From Thermicanus aegyptius DSM 12793 (GTDB lineage: Bacteria > Bacillota > Bacilli > Thermicanales > Thermicanaceae), in contig NZ_KI783301.1 of assembly GCF_000510645.1 (NCBI RefSeq), positions 2,611,151 to 2,675,150 of the forward strand: a DNA stretch of 64,000 nt, in the 5' to 3' direction. This document shows positions 14,291-21,292 of the stretch, in pieces. The first letter of the stretch is position 1. Each line of letters opens with the position of its first letter. A program made the translations under genes and the position numbers. The notes under the pieces were generated by a model that was given only the letters and a program-made list of their open reading frames with translations, was not told the DNA's origin and ran no database searches.

Positions 14291-14908
14291 TTAATTCACA
14301 GCCTCCCTTAATTTCTCCAGGGTCATGCGCTCAACAAATTTGGAGAATTTTTCTTTCTTTTTCCCGTTTTGCTGAAACAACTCGATGAGTTTGCGCACGA
14401 CAGGAATCAACTGTTGCTCCGTTAACCCCGAAAGGAATAATACTCCCAGCGTCGGTTTCAACGATTTGCCGTCACCACCTACATAAATATCATAAGTGTC
14501 TCTCATCTTGACGATCCCAATATCTTTTAACAAAGGCTCGCTCGTGCCGAGTGCGCAGCCGGCAAACCCGATTTTCAGAGGACTTGGCACTTCATGTCCG
14601 GAAATCGCTTCATCCAGCGCTCGCGCTACATCCAAACCGGCTTCTTCTGCACCACGGCAGAAATTACAAGAAATAAGGCTCTTTGTTACAAAACCTGCGG
14701 GGTGAATTTGCAAACCCGCATTCTTTAGCTTTTCCTTGATTTCCTCCACTCTTACTTCATCCACCTCAACATATAGCTGCTTGAATGGGGTTAATTCGAT
14801 TTTGGCATTTTCCCCCACCGTGGTTCCTAGAACAGCTAAGTGTTCCGGTTTAAATAAGGTTCCACCCACTTCAAATCCGGGAGTAACTGCGAACTTCACA
14901 AAGCCCAT
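14291..14908 (-). CDS. Small sulfite/nitrite-reductase-like protein with altered cluster cysteines
   Basis: This protein of about 205 residues has a ferredoxin-like half-domain followed by the siroheme/[4Fe-4S] region of the nitrite/sulfite reductase family (LKIGFAGCALGTSEPLLKDIGI and a YVGGDG motif). The usual ligands are C-x5-C ... C-x3-C. Here the first pair reads CRGAEEA and the second CALGT, so the second Cys of each pair is Ala and Thr; an extra CNFC precedes. Siroheme catalysis is therefore doubtful. ATG 14908 is preferred because GGGGAGG lies 9 bp upstream. It has its own promoter and no cotranscribed neighbour. Confidence 0.7.
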   Translation of the reverse strand: MGFVKFAVTPGFEVGGTLFKPEHLAVLGTTVGENAKIELTPFKQLYVEVDEVRVEEIKEKLKNAGLQIHPAGFVTKSLISCNFCRGAEEAGLDVARALDEAISGHEVPSPLKIGFAGCALGTSEPLLKDIGIVKMRDTYDIYVGGDGKSLKPTLGVLFLSGLTEQQLIPVVRKLIELFQQNGKKKEKFSKFVERMTLEKLREAVN

Positions 14909-14985
14909 TTTTCTCAACCTCCCCAGTCATAACAGGATCTTCACGGACACGTCTACTCGTTGTAACAGAAAGTATCTCTTACATA

Positions 14986-15002
14986 TACCTCCATAGGGTA
15001 TA
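14986..15002. promoter_or_regulatory. CsoR/CstR-like palindrome in the leader
   Basis: ATACCTCCATAGGGTAT is a 17-bp imperfect palindrome of the ATACCC-N5-GGGTAT type bound by CsoR-family repressors. It lies in the transcribed leader of the sulfite-reductase-like gene. Confidence 0.4.
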
Positions 15003-15118
15003 AAAGCAATTAAAACGTACGGTTTACCGCAAAGATCAAACCGCTTGACTCATCTGAGCCGAACAGTCTGCCGCATCATGAATGGTTTTCCATACGATTC
15101 GGCTTTCTTGTTTTTATG

Positions 15119-15147
15119 ATAGTATACCCCTGTATTGTATTTGTCAA
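15119..15147 (-). promoter_or_regulatory. Promoter of the sulfite-reductase-like gene with overlapping palindrome
   Basis: On the minus strand TTGACA (15147-15142) and TACTAT (15124-15119) are separated by 17 bp, a near-consensus sigma-A promoter. Plus-strand ATACCCCTGTATTGTAT (15124-15140) fills the spacer and is a second ATACCC-N5-type site, in the right place to block RNA polymerase. Confidence 0.65.
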
Positions 15148-15209: not shown

Positions 15210-15895
15210 GTAGTCGGGGGCAAATTTTTTGATGAAGGAGTGGAACATCATGAAAGGAAAACATGTTTGGCTGACATCGGTTCTGGTTGTTGCCATGCTC
15301 TCCATTGCAGCCGTTACTTCGACATTTGCAGCGCCGAAATTGACGGTTGAAAAAACGAATGATCCGATTTCCAAATCGGTGGATATTAGCCAACAGTCAT
15401 CCGGTGCCGTGACCGTTATGAAGAAACCTGTCCAACCGGTCATCGACGATACAGCGGAAACGTCAAGCCGTGTAACCGTCGATGGGAAACCCGTACATGC
15501 CCTTCAACTGTCAAAGGAAAGCATCAAAGAGATCAAATTGTCGGAAGCGGATGAGGCCGGTGTTCTGGCAACCTACCACGTCGACATCACACTGCCCGGT
15601 CAAACCCTTGCCCGAATCAGCGACAGCAATGGCAATCCGTGGCATCTGACAAGGGGAGAAGAGGTCACCCTCACTCTCTCATGGCTTCCGAGAGATGCGG
15701 CGCTTCGTGTCGGACTCATTGACTCCGACAACACGTTCCATTATGTTCACTTTACAGGCGGTGCGGACGCGGTCACTTTCACGGTGAATGTGGCGGACGA
15801 CTACCGCGTTGGCATTTACAATACCGACACACACGAAGCGGAAATCTCGGGAGATATCACGATTTAATCCAATGAAGTGAAATGCCCCCGACTAC
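15210..15895. repeat. 13-bp inverted repeat flanking one gene
   Basis: GTAGTCGGGGGCA (15210-15222) and its exact reverse complement TGCCCCCGACTAC (15883-15895) lie just before the ribosome binding sites of the secreted-protein gene and of the response-regulator gene. Function unknown. Confidence 0.5.
15250..15867 (+). CDS. Secreted protein of unknown function, cotranscribed with a two-component system
   Basis: This 205-residue protein has a Sec signal peptide (KGKHVWL n-region, hydrophobic SVLVVAMLSIAAVTS, cleavage near TFA-AP). The mature part is Thr/Val-rich and probably beta-rich, with no recognised catalytic motif. AAGGAG lies 9 bp before the ATG at 15250; an upstream ATG at 15229 has no ribosome binding site. 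The response regulator follows after 47 bp, so this may be an extracytoplasmic accessory or target of that system. No family assigned. Confidence 0.75.
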   Translation: MKGKHVWLTSVLVVAMLSIAAVTSTFAAPKLTVEKTNDPISKSVDISQQSSGAVTVMKKPVQPVIDDTAETSSRVTVDGKPVHALQLSKESIKEIKLSEADEAGVLATYHVDITLPGQTLARISDSNGNPWHLTRGEEVTLTLSWLPRDAALRVGLIDSDNTFHYVHFTGGADAVTFTVNVADDYRVGIYNTDTHEAEISGDITI

Positions 15896-15914
15896 GTTTT
15901 GAGGTGACGAAAAA

Positions 15915-16610
15915 ATGAGATTATTAATTGTGGAAGACGAAGAGGATCTGGCAAACGCCATAAAAAAAGGCCTGCAAAAAGAAGGGTTCGCCGTGGATGT
16001 TGCATTTGACGGCCTGGAAGGGGACCGGCTTACCGAGATTTATTCCTACGATCTCGTGCTGCTGGATTTAAACCTGCCGGAAATAAACGGTCTTAAGCTG
16101 TTGCAACACATTCGCAAACGTTCCTCGCAAACCAGGGTGTTGATTCTCACCGCCCGTACGGAGATTGAGGATCGGATTCATGGGTTGAATATGGGAGCGG
16201 ACGACTATTTGGGCAAGCCGTTTCATTTTGGAGAACTGAAGGCAAGAATCCGTGCTTTGTTACGGCGCGACATTTCCATCGGCACCCCCGTTTTAAGCTA
16301 CGGTCCGGTTGAATTGAATACCGTCACCATGACCGTTACATGCGGTGGTCATCTCCTGTCGTTGACCCGAAAAGAGCTGGCGATCCTCCATTATTTTTTG
16401 TCCCATCCCGATCGCGTCATTAGCTCCGAGGAATTATTGGAGCATGTGTGGGATCAAAACGCCGATCTCTTTTCAAACGCCGTAAGGGTTCATATCACTT
16501 CGCTGCGAAACAAGGTGAAACCGTTTCTGCCGGAAGTCAATCTTTTGGAAACCGTTCCGGGAATCGGATATCGGCTGAACCGGCAATTGAAGGAGTATGC
16601 GGCGCCATGA
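15915..16610 (+). CDS. OmpR/PhoB-family response regulator
   Basis: This 231-residue protein has a receiver domain (acidic pair near residues 7-8, phospho-acceptor Asp51 in VLLDLNLPE, switch Thr in ILTAR, Lys in GKPF) and a C-terminal winged helix (about 130-225; LTRKELAILHYFL, VRVHITSLRNKV, TVPGIGYRL). RBS GAGGTGA precedes the ATG. It overlaps the kinase gene by 4 bp, so the two are translationally coupled. Confidence 0.95.
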   Translation: MRLLIVEDEEDLANAIKKGLQKEGFAVDVAFDGLEGDRLTEIYSYDLVLLDLNLPEINGLKLLQHIRKRSSQTRVLILTARTEIEDRIHGLNMGADDYLGKPFHFGELKARIRALLRRDISIGTPVLSYGPVELNTVTMTVTCGGHLLSLTRKELAILHYFLSHPDRVISSEELLEHVWDQNADLFSNAVRVHITSLRNKVKPFLPEVNLLETVPGIGYRLNRQLKEYAAP

Positions 16611-17827
16611 GGAACCAATTTCAACTCACTTTGAAGAAACGGATGGTTCTCTGGAACGCCCTTTTATTGATCCTGGCAGGTTTATTCCTGGTCATTGCCA
16701 TGAATGTGTTCATCCATATGATGCTGCCCAAAGTATATGTGACGGCCACGGAATCACAAGTGGAATCGGATCCGGACCCGCATTTTCCCACCATTGAAAA
16801 GGTGGACATCGGAAACAGTACAGGTATTCAGCAGGAAGTGCTAGCGTCGGATATTGGCTATTCCTCTTCGATTCTCACGTTTAAAAAACGCATCCAGATG
16901 TTTTCCATCGTTTGTTTGCTCGCGGTGATGGCGCTGGGCAGTGCAGGAGCTTATTATATCTCCAAAAAGTCGCTCTTTCCCGTGCGCCAATTGGCCGACC
17001 GCATCAAAAAAATAAACGCCAATCAGTTGTCGGTTCAACTTCCTGTGGCTGGACCGGACGATGAATTGAAGGATTTGTCGGAAGCGTTCAATACGATGCT
17101 GCAAACGTTGGACCGTTCGTTTCAGCAGCAAAAGCATTTCATTTCCAATGCCGCCCATGAGTTTCGTACGCCCATAACCGTTTTGCAAACCAATCTGGAA
17201 GTGGTCAAACACGACAGCGCGGCCACAGCAGAGGATTATCATCGGCTGATGGACGTATTCGACAAGACGTTAAGCCGAATGATCCGAATGATCAACGATT
17301 TGCTCGTCCTTGCGAAAGACGACCTAATCAAAAAAGAACCCATAGAAATCGTCGCGATCATGGATAAAACGATTGCCGATCTCAAGAATTTGGCCGACAA
17401 ACACGGCGTTTCCGTCGAAGTTTCGAATGAATGCCGCTCCGTTCTGCTCGGCAACGAAGTTTTATTGCAGCGCGCCCTGAGCAATTTGGTTGAAAATGCC
17501 ATTCTGTACAATCGCCCGAACGGCAACGTGATCATTTCTTGTCAGCTGCAGGAAGATGAACTATGGATATCGATCTCAAATACGGGGGCCGGGATTGAAC
17601 CAGAGCACATGCCGTATATCTTCGAGCCCTTTTATAGAACCGACCGGAGCCGAACAAAGAACAAAATGGGCGCAGGGCTTGGATTGTCGATTGCCTCCTC
17701 GGTTGTTCACAAGCATGGCGGGAGGATCGATGTTCATCAAAAACAAGGAGTAACTTGTTTTACGGTCCGTTTTCCCCTATCTGAGATGCTTTCAGATCAA
17801 TCTCTCCCCGTTTCAGGTTCAACTTGA
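16607..17827 (+). CDS. Membrane sensor histidine kinase
   Basis: This 406-residue kinase has TM1 (about 12-33), an extracytoplasmic loop of about 60 residues, TM2 (about 98-118), HAMP (about 118-172), the HisKA H-box NAAHEFRTPI (His about 184), and HATPase_c with N-box LVENAILYN and G-box GAGLGLSIA. It starts at the ATGA overlap with the regulator gene. Its 3' end overlaps the convergent Lgt-like gene by 31 bp. The signal sensed is unknown. Confidence 0.94.
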   Translation: MRNQFQLTLKKRMVLWNALLLILAGLFLVIAMNVFIHMMLPKVYVTATESQVESDPDPHFPTIEKVDIGNSTGIQQEVLASDIGYSSSILTFKKRIQMFSIVCLLAVMALGSAGAYYISKKSLFPVRQLADRIKKINANQLSVQLPVAGPDDELKDLSEAFNTMLQTLDRSFQQQKHFISNAAHEFRTPITVLQTNLEVVKHDSAATAEDYHRLMDVFDKTLSRMIRMINDLLVLAKDDLIKKEPIEIVAIMDKTIADLKNLADKHGVSVEVSNECRSVLLGNEVLLQRALSNLVENAILYNRPNGNVIISCQLQEDELWISISNTGAGIEPEHMPYIFEPFYRTDRSRTKNKMGAGLGLSIASSVVHKHGGRIDVHQKQGVTCFTVRFPLSEMLSDQSLPVSGST

Positions 17828-18573
17828 TTTGAATCCACTGCAGGCGTTCCCTTGCGACGGTTCGTTCTCTCAAAAAAAACAGATAGAATCCATCCTGTTG
17901 TGATCATCAATAAGTATAGAATTTGCTCTCGGGATAACCCGTAGAAAGCAGACGTTTTGGTTTTAAAGATGGAAACCAGCATAAGGCCCATGCCGTAATA
18001 GATGAGTACATTTAGAATCATGTTCCCGGTGCCCAACAACACCGAACTCTTTCTCCATAACCAAATCCACATGGGCAGCGTGACCAGAAAAATGTAGATG
18101 TTAACGGGGTGGTACCGAAAGTCAGGGTTTTCGAGGGAGATCCCCCAGGGGAGATGGGTCGTCGTACCATACTGTTTGTCCAACAGGCTGTACACCAGCA
18201 TGGCTGTGACCCATCCCAGAGCCATCAAATCCGCAAAAAAGAGTCTGGGAATCTTCATCGTCCACAAAGCTCTGTCCATATACAGCAAAGCTGCCCCCGC
18301 TCCCAACCAAACTCCCGCGGTATGACCGGGCATGATCAAAACCCCGAGTGGAAAGGTCCACAGCAGGGAGGGTGCATAGAGCAGAGGGCTGAGCTTCCAA
18401 ACCAGAAAAGCGATGATGAAAGCGTTAAGTAATTTGTCCGGAAGAGGGCGTTCCGCAAAAGCGGATTTCTTCAATGCATGCTTCAGTGCACCGTAACCGG
18501 CAATGCCGGATACTCCCATCAGTAACCAGTCCAATCGAATCATCAATGAGCCGAATTGCAAAACGTCCAGCAT
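17797..18573 (-). CDS. Prolipoprotein diacylglyceryl transferase (Lgt)-like membrane protein
   Basis: This 258-residue polytopic protein (about seven hydrophobic segments) contains a central HPVNIYIF segment resembling the HPxxLYE region of Lgt and a PGHTAG motif. It is more divergent than housekeeping Lgt, so enzymatic identity is uncertain. It is the last gene of the CcdA-ResA-Lgt-like operon (12-bp gap) and its C-terminus is charged and cytoplasmic. Confidence 0.6.
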   Translation of the reverse strand: MLDVLQFGSLMIRLDWLLMGVSGIAGYGALKHALKKSAFAERPLPDKLLNAFIIAFLVWKLSPLLYAPSLLWTFPLGVLIMPGHTAGVWLGAGAALLYMDRALWTMKIPRLFFADLMALGWVTAMLVYSLLDKQYGTTTHLPWGISLENPDFRYHPVNIYIFLVTLPMWIWLWRKSSVLLGTGNMILNVLIYYGMGLMLVSIFKTKTSAFYGLSREQILYLLMITTGWILSVFFERTNRRKGTPAVDSNQVEPETGRD

Positions 18574-18585
18574 GGAGATGCCCTC

Positions 18586-19098
18586 CTAAGGAATAAGCTG
18601 CCTAAACTTATCTTCCATCGTTTTCGGATCCACCACACCGATCACTTTATCTACAATCATTCCGTCACCCTTCACAAAAAACGATGTGGGTATCGATCTT
18701 ACTTGATAAATGTCCGAAACCTTCCCTTTTTCATCTAGTAACACAGGAAAGAGGAACCCGAACGTTTCTGCGAATTCTTTCGCTCCCTCCACACTGTCGC
18801 TAGACGTCAAGTTTACCGCATAGATTTCAATTTGATCGCGATATTTCTCATAAAGCCGAACGAACTCGGGCGCCTCAATTCTGCACGGTCCGCACCAGGA
18901 AGCCCAAAAATTGATGACGACCGGTTTACCCTTCAAGCCTTCAAGCGAATACGTTTTTCCGTCCAAAGCCTTCAGTTCAAACGGCGGAGCCTGATAGCCG
19001 ATCTTCGGCAACGCTTCGAGATTTTTTGAAGTCGACTGATACATGGCCAGAACAACCAAAAAGACAATGACCACTAAAATCATCCATTGCTTTTTCAA
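18586..19098 (-). CDS. TlpA/ResA-like membrane-anchored thioredoxin
   Basis: This 170-residue protein has an N-terminal signal-anchor (about 5-22) and a thioredoxin fold with active site WASWCGPCRIE (Cys about 69 and 72) and the cis-Pro region RSIPTSFF. ResA/TlpA proteins reduce apocytochrome c or other extracytoplasmic disulfides using electrons from CcdA, whose homologue is encoded 15 bp upstream. Confidence 0.92.
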   Translation of the reverse strand: MKKQWMILVVIVFLVVLAMYQSTSKNLEALPKIGYQAPPFELKALDGKTYSLEGLKGKPVVINFWASWCGPCRIEAPEFVRLYEKYRDQIEIYAVNLTSSDSVEGAKEFAETFGFLFPVLLDEKGKVSDIYQVRSIPTSFFVKGDGMIVDKVIGVVDPKTMEDKFRQLIP

Positions 19099-19113
19099 CG
19101 CTTTTCCTCCACT

Positions 19114-19857
19114 TCAGAATAGAGTCCAATAGGTTAACGTATCGCTGCTTCCAAGGAGAATAAAGAAGACACCCGATGCTTTTTGAATCCAACCGCCCCA
19201 ACGTTTCATTCGCTTTACGAGTACTCGGTCCAATCCGAAACCTACGGTCAGGCCGGCAATAAACAACAAAGGCATCGCCGTCCCCACCGCAAATACCGAC
19301 GGCAACAGAACACCGTAGGAAGATTGGAGAGCGAGAGGCATAAGGGAACCGAAAAATAAGACAAACATGGTCGGACAGAATCCGATTGAAAACGCAACAC
19401 CCAGGAAAAAGGCCCCGCTTTTGCCCCCTTTCCGTTCCGACCATCTTTGGATCGCAGAAGAAAAACGCGCGACAAATTGAAACGGTAATCGGATCCAACC
19501 GAGCAGAAATAGGCCGATCACGACAAGCAGCGGACCGAGGAGTTTCCTCGACCACGAAAACAACGGAATAAAATCGGTAGAAATCTGCCGTCCAAACGCC
19601 CAAAACAGCGCTCCAAATAAACTGAAAACCGCCATTTTCCCCAGGAGATACATCACGGTCTCCAGCCAAGACAACTTCGCCTGCACCTGTCGATTCCCAA
19701 AGTATGCGATCGCCGCCGCGTTGGCTGAAATCTGACAGGGAGCGACCGATCCCACGATCCCCAAAAACAAGGCAGCCAAAAAAGCAATATCCGTATGAGC
19801 TGCATTTGCAAACGGGCCACTCAAAAAATTGCTGATTTTGGTGAAAAATTCGTACAT
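19114..19857 (-). CDS. CcdA/DsbD-type thiol-reductant transporter
   Basis: This 247-residue membrane protein has about six transmembrane helices and the cysteine motifs VAPCQISAN (TM1) and GFCPTMFVLFFG (TM4), as in CcdA/DsbD-beta proteins that carry reductant from cytosolic thioredoxin to ResA-like partners. ATG 19857 is chosen because GGGGGGAGGAC precedes it. It is the first gene of the operon, and an ACTAC-N5-GTAGT operator lies 105 bp upstream. Confidence 0.85.
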   Translation of the reverse strand: MYEFFTKISNFLSGPFANAAHTDIAFLAALFLGIVGSVAPCQISANAAAIAYFGNRQVQAKLSWLETVMYLLGKMAVFSLFGALFWAFGRQISTDFIPLFSWSRKLLGPLLVVIGLFLLGWIRLPFQFVARFSSAIQRWSERKGGKSGAFFLGVAFSIGFCPTMFVLFFGSLMPLALQSSYGVLLPSVFAVGTAMPLLFIAGLTVGFGLDRVLVKRMKRWGGWIQKASGVFFILLGSSDTLTYWTLF

Positions 19858-19961
19858 GTCCTCCCCCCTAAAATCCCGCCATTCCGCCAAAGAGTTCAAA
19901 CAGGAAGATCGCTATTAAGAGCATCCGTTAAATTAGAAGCGCTCGGGACTCTGCCATTGTG

Positions 19962-19976
19962 ACTACGCTTCGTAGT
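19962..19976. promoter_or_regulatory. Second BlaI-type operator, upstream of ccdA-like gene
   Basis: ACTACGCTTCGTAGT is a perfect ACTAC-N5-GTAGT dyad, the same architecture as the dyad in the blaI-like promoter at 21311-21325. It lies in the 143-bp gap between the M56 stop and the ccdA-like start. Confidence 0.6.
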
Positions 19977-20000
19977 GATCCAGGTGCAGAAAAAGGTGGT

Positions 20001-20861
20001 TTATGAAGAACACCCACCCATCCCCATGCTTAACATGGCGAATAAGATCCACACGGACAGGATCACCGTATTCCAGCGAAAAAAAGAAATGGAAATTGGC
20101 TTGTTGGGTTCAAGAACCTGCAAGATGCGAAAGTTCATCGCCGCGTCGGCAAAAGAAACGCCCACAATCACTTTGTGACGATTTCCCCAATTCGCCATAC
20201 GCAGCAGCACTTGCCCCAGGTAATATTCGGTTCCCATCTGACGCATGGCATAGCGGTCGGCCAAAAGCTCTTTCCATGTTTTATAATGCAGCGCCGCGGC
20301 TTTTATAATGGGAATATACCCGAAGCCGTCTGAAATGACGGCGAATAAAAAAGCCTTAAGCGGATCGTAATGGCGGCAATGATACATTTCATGCAGGAGA
20401 ATCGCTTCCGCCTCCCGTTTGGAAAACAGTCGGAAAAGTCCGGTCGAAACGATGATTCGAGGCTTTAACAGCCCCATGGTTAAAGCGATAAACCCATCGT
20501 CTTCAACCACCACAAACCGTATCCTCCCATTCCGGTACCTGTCATTCAGCCGTTTGGTTAGCCTGGGGTCCGTTTTTTCCCGGAACCAATGAGTCCATTT
20601 ACGGGTCAAGTACCATTGCTTGATGAGGCGCCAAAAGATCCGAACGGAGGAGTATGCGATCAAAAGATTTAACAATACCTGGATGAAATTGTACCCTACG
20701 CTTGCCTCTTGAATAATGGTGAGACAATATTGAAACAAATCCCATTTGATCGGTACGCCCCATACTTGATGAGCTACAAATAAGCCCATCTGAAACAATA
20801 CCAATAAACTGAAAAGTATGACGAAACCAAAGGATAAGTTGAGTTTCAAAGCGGGTTTCAT
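20001..20861 (-). CDS. M56-family (BlaR1-type) membrane metallopeptidase
   Basis: This 286-residue protein has hydrophobic helices near 12-32 and 55-75 and a zinc-protease motif LLHEMYHCRHYDP (about 155-167). It lacks the C-terminal penicillin-sensor domain of BlaR1. Such short M56 proteins cleave their cognate BlaI-type repressor on an unknown signal. It overlaps the blaI-like gene by 4 bp (ATGA). Confidence 0.88.
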   Translation of the reverse strand: MKPALKLNLSFGFVILFSLLVLFQMGLFVAHQVWGVPIKWDLFQYCLTIIQEASVGYNFIQVLLNLLIAYSSVRIFWRLIKQWYLTRKWTHWFREKTDPRLTKRLNDRYRNGRIRFVVVEDDGFIALTMGLLKPRIIVSTGLFRLFSKREAEAILLHEMYHCRHYDPLKAFLFAVISDGFGYIPIIKAAALHYKTWKELLADRYAMRQMGTEYYLGQVLLRMANWGNRHKVIVGVSFADAAMNFRILQVLEPNKPISISFFRWNTVILSVWILFAMLSMGMGGCSS

Positions 20862-21292
20862 GGCTGTTTCCTGCTTTTCATCCGATTTAATTTTTCCTGA
20901 AGTTTGGCGATCAAATCAGGATCAGCCTCATCCAGCGCGTCGATCATATGATTAATAACGAGATCGCCGTATTCATGGATAAGCCCGTAGGTCACCGCTT
21001 TGGTCTGTTCGTTTAAAAACTGTTCTTTGGTCTGCACCGGTTCGTAATAAGAAGAGCGTGCTCTTCCCCTTCCTACGATTTTCTTTTGCAGATGTCCTTT
21101 TTCCAGCAATCGATTCATCACCGTCATCACCGCGTTAAACGAAATCGGGGCTTCCTTATTCAAAATTTCCTGAACTTCCTTGATACTCAACCCTTTTGCG
21201 GACCAGAGAATATCCATTATTCGGGCTTCGAGGGGACCGAAAAACCGATTGAGTCCTTCTTCGTTCATATTCAATCTCTTCACTTTCATCAT
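20858..21292 (-). CDS. blaI: BlaI/MecI/CopY-family repressor
   Basis: This 144-residue winged-helix repressor has LEARIMDILWSAKGLSIKEV and the recognition region SFNAVMTVMNRLLEKGHL, followed by the helical dimerisation tail. BlaI proteins bind TACA/TGTA-type dyads and are inactivated by an M56 protease, encoded here just downstream. Two adjacent ATGs follow GGGGGTGGAAAG; either could start it. A dyad overlaps its own -10, which suggests autoregulation. Confidence 0.92.
   Translation of the reverse strand: MMKVKRLNMNEEGLNRFFGPLEARIMDILWSAKGLSIKEVQEILNKEAPISFNAVMTVMNRLLEKGHLQKKIVGRGRARSSYYEPVQTKEQFLNEQTKAVTYGLIHEYGDLVINHMIDALDEADPDLIAKLQEKLNRMKSRKQP

Follow-up and report, generated by a model that had tools for sequence, protein, structure and literature searches.

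A small sulfite/nitrite reductase-fold protein linked to CsoR-type copper-efflux operons and found also where genes for siroheme synthesis are lacking

The window considered here, i.e. the whole 64,000-nucleotide stretch of Thermicanus aegyptius DSM 12793 DNA that was analysed, contains a short gene for a protein of the sulfite/nitrite reductase (SiR/NiR) fold, preceded by a long leader with a promoter-like sequence and two operator-like palindromes (Table 1). A TTG codon three codons upstream of the ATG is also a possible start. Genes sharing the intergenic region are divergent (15250-17827) and encode a signal-peptide-like protein with no Pfam match, then an OmpR-type response regulator and a histidine kinase (the kinase assigned by eye); minus-strand genes in the adjoining stretch (17797-21292) encode a BlaI/MecI-like repressor and an M56-like membrane peptidase (both assigned by eye), together with a DsbD_2/CcdA-like protein, a ResA-like thioredoxin and an LGT-like membrane protein.

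Table 1. Positions of the gene, its ligand codons and the leader elements (window numbering; L016 is the locus of the paralogous host operon)
Feature	Position	Strand	Remarks
CDS, small NIR_SIR-fold copper-operon protein	14291..14908	minus	205 aa, ATG start; intact; 92% identical paralogue behind copA
E124 codon	14537-14539	minus	invariant in the A2 alignment
Second ligand loop codons, C118-x3-T122	14543..14557	minus	last Cys replaced by Thr
First cluster loop codons, C81-N-F-C84	14657..14668	minus	C-x2-C instead of C-x5-C
Apparent remnant of copA 3' end before the gene	14930..14966	minus	gene-side limit approximate
Apparent remnant of copZ-copA intergenic region	14969..15064	minus	72.7% to L016 11644-11546, E 1.4e-10
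Putative operator 1, ATACCTCCATAGGGTAT	14985..15001		1 mismatch to ATACCCN5GGGTAT; counterpart of the operator before copA
Apparent remnant of csoR promoter and first csoR codons	15067..15156	minus	85.6% to L016 12283-12198, E 1.3e-23
Sigma-A type promoter-like TTGACA-17-TACTAT	15119..15147	minus	10/12; near-identical sequence before csoR
Putative operator 2, ATACCCCTGTATTGTAT	15124..15140		2 mismatches; minus strand ATACAATACAGGGGTAT; in promoter spacer; csoR-promoter operator

The single Pfam match of the encoded protein is to the NIR_SIR 4Fe-4S domain PF01077 (57.3 bits); NCBIfam adds partial matches, among others to NirB, NirA, CysI and CobG, each of them far under its cut-off. Its architecture, one ferredoxin-like plus 4Fe-4S module, corresponds to a half-size sulfite/nitrite reductase. 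The cluster motif of Fsr and the assimilatory enzymes is C-x5-C...C-x3-C, with C-xn-CC-x3-C as an alternative for siroheme reductases (PMC10229431, in part); the window protein has neither, its corresponding residues being CxFC...GC-x3-T. A first-pass annotation of this DNA had read the two sites as C...A and C...T. Letter by letter that reading is accurate (C81-x5-A87 and C118-x3-T122), yet C84 is present as the second cysteine of the first site, such that a three-residue shortening of the loop, from C-x5-C to C-x2-C, appears a better account than loss of that cysteine. On the aligned sequences the sole apparent loss of a cluster ligand is that of the last cysteine, with T122 in its place. 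This threonine aligns, by sequence, with position 472 of MjFsr, the cysteine of which provides the sulfur bridging cluster to siroheme (PMC10229431, in part).

The predicted structure of the protein (pLDDT 90.1, pTM 0.85; least confident in the CNFC block, with a mean pLDDT of 72 over residues 81-90) has the SiR/NiR fold, being closest to Fsr (VIA Z 19.5, rmsd 3.4 over 200 aa), followed by Dsr (Z ~17), CysI (~15) and NiR (14.5). With the siroheme reductases (CysI, NirB, NiR, Fsr and Dsr, Z 14.5-19.5) it shares the two-domain module and PF01077; it differs from them in having C-x2-C for C-x5-C, threonine for the bridging cysteine and a copper-operon setting, and its family differs in occurring also in genomes that lack the genes for siroheme synthesis.

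Apart from these, a single match exceeds Z 8.1, namely that to the cluster domain of IspG (VIA Z 10.0, rmsd 2.6, 94 aa, 20% identity), which is the closest siroheme-free relative. The profile A2, comprising the window protein, its host paralogue and 50 of the 63 homologue loci described below, aligns by hhalign with 12 IspG sequences (probability 92.8, E 4e-7), pairing C81, C84, C118 and E124 with IspG C262, C265, C297 and E304; both the VIA and hhalign comparisons were examined with IspG already in mind, and IspG is absent from a sequence profile search of the PDB and from the best 50 Foldseek matches. The cluster of IspG is held by three cysteines and a glutamate (PMC11218510, in part), so the likeness to the C-terminal [4Fe-4S] domain of IspG (GcpE) extends to the CxxC...C...E spacing as well as to the lack of siroheme. 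The window protein has one residue fewer before the glutamate, an extra N-terminal ferredoxin-like domain and no TIM barrel; it has no link to the MEP pathway, and the host has its own IspG. At 205 aa it is not a full-length IspG family member, and has no Pfam GcpE match up to 0.01; a member of the sister clade (below) matches GcpE at E 0.0069, below the cut-off. The IspG likeness is confined to the cluster domain; taken as a whole, the protein lies nearer to Fsr (Z 19.5) and to CysI/NiR. NirB likewise has a glutamate at the place of E124, and this residue is therefore not specific to IspG.

A scan of named genomes (Paenibacillus, Brevibacillus, Cohnella, Shimazuella) gave 63 homologue loci. 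CxFC is present in 62/63 and GC-x3-T in 61/63, the exceptions being broken copies, i.e. L086, which lacks both motifs, and L088, a partial copy that lacks the second and matches over residues 80-124 only. In L086 tblastn covers residues 1-205 and the frame as read stops after 52 aa, so that this copy is probably frameshifted. The search that gave the 63 loci used the peptide CNFCRGAE in part, and the conservation of CxFC among them is biased to that extent; a profile search with no requirement for CxFC gives the same conservation (44/44 loci, L090-L133, a set that includes the window itself and some of the 63 again). In the A2 alignment 33 columns are invariant, among them three cysteines, one glutamate and several lysines/arginines.

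Searched against 398 genomes of the window's class (inferred to be Bacilli), A2 scores at least 196 bits in 49 among the matches listed, with frames of 205-365 aa; one further genome (G244) reaches 163 bits with a partial match, and the next scores among the matches listed, at most 141 bits, come mostly from frames of ~500-760 aa of the CysI/NirB type. Across 398 genomes of the phylum, five reach at least 196 bits, all of the same class as the window. A sister clade (25 loci, not counting L134, which scores 118 bits and does not belong to the family) has CxFC...GC-x3-C, i.e. a set of four cysteines of which the first two are at the short spacing. In a tree of 53 rows, which includes 25 of the 63 loci, the C-x3-T and C-x3-C forms are separated by one branch (support 99/98), and a single Cys/Thr exchange therefore suffices to account for them. 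The alignment of homologues, a check that the first-pass annotation had proposed, accordingly bears out its expectation that they do not keep all four canonical cysteines; the altered motif is a family trait and not a peculiarity of the window copy.

The genomic setting of the family is predominantly that of copper efflux. One or more of copA, copZ and csoR lie within 4 kb in 51/63 homologue loci (copA in 48, csoR in 43, copZ in 40), frequently in the order csoR-copZ-copA-[NIR_SIR gene]; of the remaining 12, two have a YtkA-like gene only and ten have no marker at all within that distance. In 32/63 loci a copA stop lies 17-249 nt upstream on the same strand, a count that omits L065 and L069, which have a copA tail only, and the broken copy L088 (35 before omission). 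Other neighbours are the YtkA-like gene (22/63; named from likeness, there being no Pfam match), glutaredoxin (16/63) and ferredoxin (3/63). For the sister clade, copA, copZ or csoR are near in 15/25 loci, 11 of the 25 having a flank of at most 1.5 kb. A protein search of plasmid records finds the family there too, and 2/4 of the records examined have the order copper-binding protein/CopZ, P-type ATPase, 'nitrite reductase': in both Mesobacillus foraminis and Paenibacillus urinalis a P-type ATPase precedes the family gene, accompanied by copZ in the former and by a 'copper ion binding protein' in the latter. The Niallia record has a CsoR-type regulator, copZ and the ATPase ~4-5 kb further on, and that of A. 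pseudofirmus has no CsoR, CopZ or P-type ATPase annotated within 5 kb of the family gene. The operon in its complete form, as in the host, has the genes, gene order and type-2 operators (TAC-X9-GTA) of the known csoR-copZ-copA operon (the CsoR regulon) and differs from it in the fourth gene, of SiR/NiR fold, which the window keeps alone; for a bacterial copper operon that is among the most thoroughly studied, a fourth recurring component is thereby named.

The host genome (one contig, 3.66 Mb) has one other NIR_SIR gene, the paralogue, which starts 32 nt past the copA stop in an operon ordered csoR, copZ, copA, paralogue. By blastn of the window strand against this operon (L016), the window leader and gene share three collinear blocks with it, of which that containing the copA end and the gene (window 14966-14291, L016 9117-8446) is 87.7% identical. 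The window locus looks like a duplicate of such an operon from which csoR-copZ and copA have been deleted, with the leftovers forming the leader, and the gene reads as the x of a csoR-copZ-copA-x copper-efflux operon of the CsoR type, now standing on its own. Fusion of the remnants would explain the distance of 139 bp between the two operators and their placement, one within the promoter between its -35 and -10 elements and the other in the leader. No Rfam family scores above its gathering score in the window; the long leader is thus not a listed riboswitch, and the fused remnants account for it. Operon context, paralogue and the origin of the palindromes as leftovers of a deleted operon did not figure in the first-pass annotation, the account of which they extend. 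Loss of csoR, copZ and copA from the locus, where fragments alone remain, might suggest that the deletion left a dying pseudogene in the window; this is most improbable, given that the frame is intact, that dN/dS against the paralogue is 0.10 with 12 synonymous versus 3 non-synonymous lineage-specific changes, and that elsewhere (L065, L069) copies persist behind a mere copA tail. These substitution patterns indicate purifying selection on the gene. Judging from the tails before the gene in L065 and L069, copA seems to have been lost elsewhere too while the family gene stayed; a shorter tail is seen by eye in L083.

The two 17-bp palindromes described in the first-pass annotation are present, in promoter and leader, with one and two mismatches to the consensus, one arm of operator 2 being without its G tract. 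As a count they are not above chance (2 found versus 1.63 expected at up to two mismatches; 56/100 shuffles reach 2; genome-wide, ATACCN7GGTAT has 7 places versus 5 for a reversed control). Promoter-like sites in the region number 2, versus 1.0 expected. CsoR operators follow a TAC-X9-GTA rule, designated type-2 (PMC3902906, in part), with which both window sites comply. The csoR-promoter pattern ATACNNTACAGGGGTAT occurs exactly at two places in the genome (the window and before csoR; none in the control), and allowing one mismatch adds two further host places, one of which is the copA operator. It is the fit to the TAC-X9-GTA rule, the homology to the csoR promoter and the copZ-copA gap, and the position of operator 2 in the promoter spacer that make the palindromes credible. 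Their conservation is divided: in most of the 63 loci the 400 nt directly before the family gene contain nothing that reaches 10/12, as follows from the gene usually being last in its operon, but among the copies that lack copper neighbours 8/10 have, within 300 nt, a CsoR-type site matching at 10-11 of 12 positions, for each of which 0/61 overlapping control windows is as good. The two that do not are L065 (best 7/12) and L066 (9/12, with 8/61 control windows as good).

CsoR proteins bind copper through a Cys-His-Cys ligand set, whereas the persulfide-responsive CstR repressor is without the His ligand. The genome search for CsoR-family genes suggested in the first-pass annotation finds three (PF02583), all with the Cys-His-Cys set in translation; one is in the paralogous operon and another lies ~2.5 kb from a second copA with its own operator. 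CstR/persulfide control was set aside, the three host proteins all keeping the histidine and the neighbours of the family being copper genes. Of the sulfur or metal stress control that had been proposed, it is the metal, specifically copper, that the CsoR-type sites and neighbours favour, and copper control of the gene through a CsoR-type repressor is well supported by sequence. The third CsoR-family gene (L003 1492-1752) has a mog-like gene on one side and sat (ATP sulfurylase) on the other, neighbours named by eye, and its product may have a sulfur role. The host has sat but neither a sulfite reductase nor siroheme synthesis.

With respect to siroheme, the host has no match to the siroheme dehydrogenase (TIGR01470), its single SUMT match scores 28.7 versus a cut-off of 185 bits and reads by eye as RsmI, and it has no NIR_SIR protein besides the window protein and paralogue, hence no true sulfite reductase; with neither enzyme detected, the host does not appear to make siroheme. 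At a threshold of E below 1e-20, both SUMT and dehydrogenase are present in 42/49 family-carrying genomes and neither is present in 7/49, i.e. the host (G000), G002, G040, G285, G310, G379 and G383, the absence in the last four being partly read from their non-appearance in lists of matching genomes. These seven genomes represent five families and are 98.6-100% complete; among the matches listed A2 finds nothing else in them, and CxxC is intact in their family proteins. The family, on this genomic distribution, appears to persist without siroheme synthesis, and the siroheme-[4Fe-4S] fold is seemingly retained without siroheme; siroheme may be used by some other members, or taken up. The description in the first-pass annotation of a non-catalytic siroheme-fold protein, or one with a different cofactor, holds in so far as the fold would carry another cofactor or none; 'non-catalytic' as such sits poorly with the invariant three cysteines, glutamate and several lysines/arginines in A2 and with the dN/dS of 0.10. 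The protein probably does a different, copper-related job from that of a sulfite/nitrite reductase, and the label 'nitrite reductase', or one much like it, that several plasmid records give to the family is called into question.

What that job may be can be approached from the company of the gene. CsoR would repress the promoter at both operators and release them on binding Cu(I), so that the protein would be made in copper excess. The CxxC...C (E/T) site would hold a [4Fe-4S] cluster without siroheme, as the homologous domain of IspG does; by analogy with that domain, such a cluster is slightly more probable than its absence. The cluster could pass electrons from a ferredoxin, glutaredoxin or thiol donor to Cu(II), reduction of which would give CopZ and CopA the Cu(I) that they export. 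The idea of a cupric reductase is suggested by the position of the gene with CopZ and CopA and by precedent, since CcoG and archaeal CopZ are Fe-S cupric reductases (PMC7558416, in part). If the idea is correct, CcoG and the A. fulgidus CopZ would resemble the window protein as Fe-S proteins proposed to supply Cu(I), a likeness of role only between different proteins. Neither is known to share the fold of the window protein. A cluster acting as cupric reductase for CopZ/CopA, in the manner of these unrelated proteins, is accordingly offered as a tentative proposal, and slightly more tentative is its full form, in which a new siroheme-independent SiR-fold lineage across Bacilli would be a dedicated IspG-like [4Fe-4S] cupric reductase loading Cu(I) onto CopZ/CopA. 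The broader explanation, of a CsoR-controlled copper-response protein, encoded by the fourth gene of the operon, with an Fe-S site and possible cupric reductase activity, has in our estimate an even chance of being right. Against the cupric reductase proposal, CxxC with a third cysteine would serve just as well for Cu(I), a redox role does not account for the Cys-to-Thr change, and ferredoxin is near in so few loci (3/63).

CopZ and CopA have CxxC as their Cu(I) motif, and the SiR fold may have been reused for a Cu(I) buffer or chaperone in which C81, C84 and C118 bind Cu(I), store it or hand it to CopA. Such a role would suit a protein encoded in the same operon as CopZ and CopA, would be indifferent to the missing fourth cysteine, three being enough for trigonal Cu(I), and would accord with the absence of siroheme genes in 7/49 carriers. 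That the three cysteines occupy the Fe-S ligand positions of SiR/NiR and IspG, that the whole two-domain fold, needless for a simple buffer, is kept, and that CopZ is already near in 40/63 loci make it a doubtful, if serious, candidate. Copper attacks exposed Fe-S clusters, and the protein might instead be sacrificial or involved in repair, as a copper-labile decoy or sensor cluster, or as a carrier of clusters to Cu(I)-damaged enzymes; the glutaredoxin gene near 16/63 family loci would fit this role, but we know of no cluster carrier or sensor of the SiR fold, and we regard it as unlikely. An ordinary small, copper-induced sulfite or nitrite reductase, as annotated, is consistent with the NIR_SIR match at 57 bits, with Fsr, Dsr and CysI as top folds, with the plasmid-record labels and with both siroheme genes in 42/49 carriers, but is highly improbable given the lack of both genes in 7/49 carriers including the host, the absence of canonical C-x5-C from the family and the exchange of the bridging cysteine for threonine in the C-x3-T clade. 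No literature on a SiR/NiR-fold protein in a copper operon was found in sources that cover subscription journals and bioRxiv thinly, which is weak evidence of novelty.

Some variation in the organisation of related loci was also observed. In L055, L057, L030 and L048 the copA before the family gene appears in at least two tblastn pieces, reflecting a frameshift, insertion or assembly error, and in L058, L059 and L061 the operon is longer, with the order copZ-copA-YtkA like-family gene-HMA-glutaredoxin-ferredoxin-csoR. The csoR-copZ-copA-paralogue operon of the host is flanked by transposase-like frames, seen by eye at L016 12563-13822 and 6926-8345 (G000:C1 ~2.70-2.71 Mb), and L016 16037-16369 encodes a Cys-rich 110-aa protein that, by eye, resembles the four-helix copper-storage proteins; the region of the host operon is possibly a copper island.
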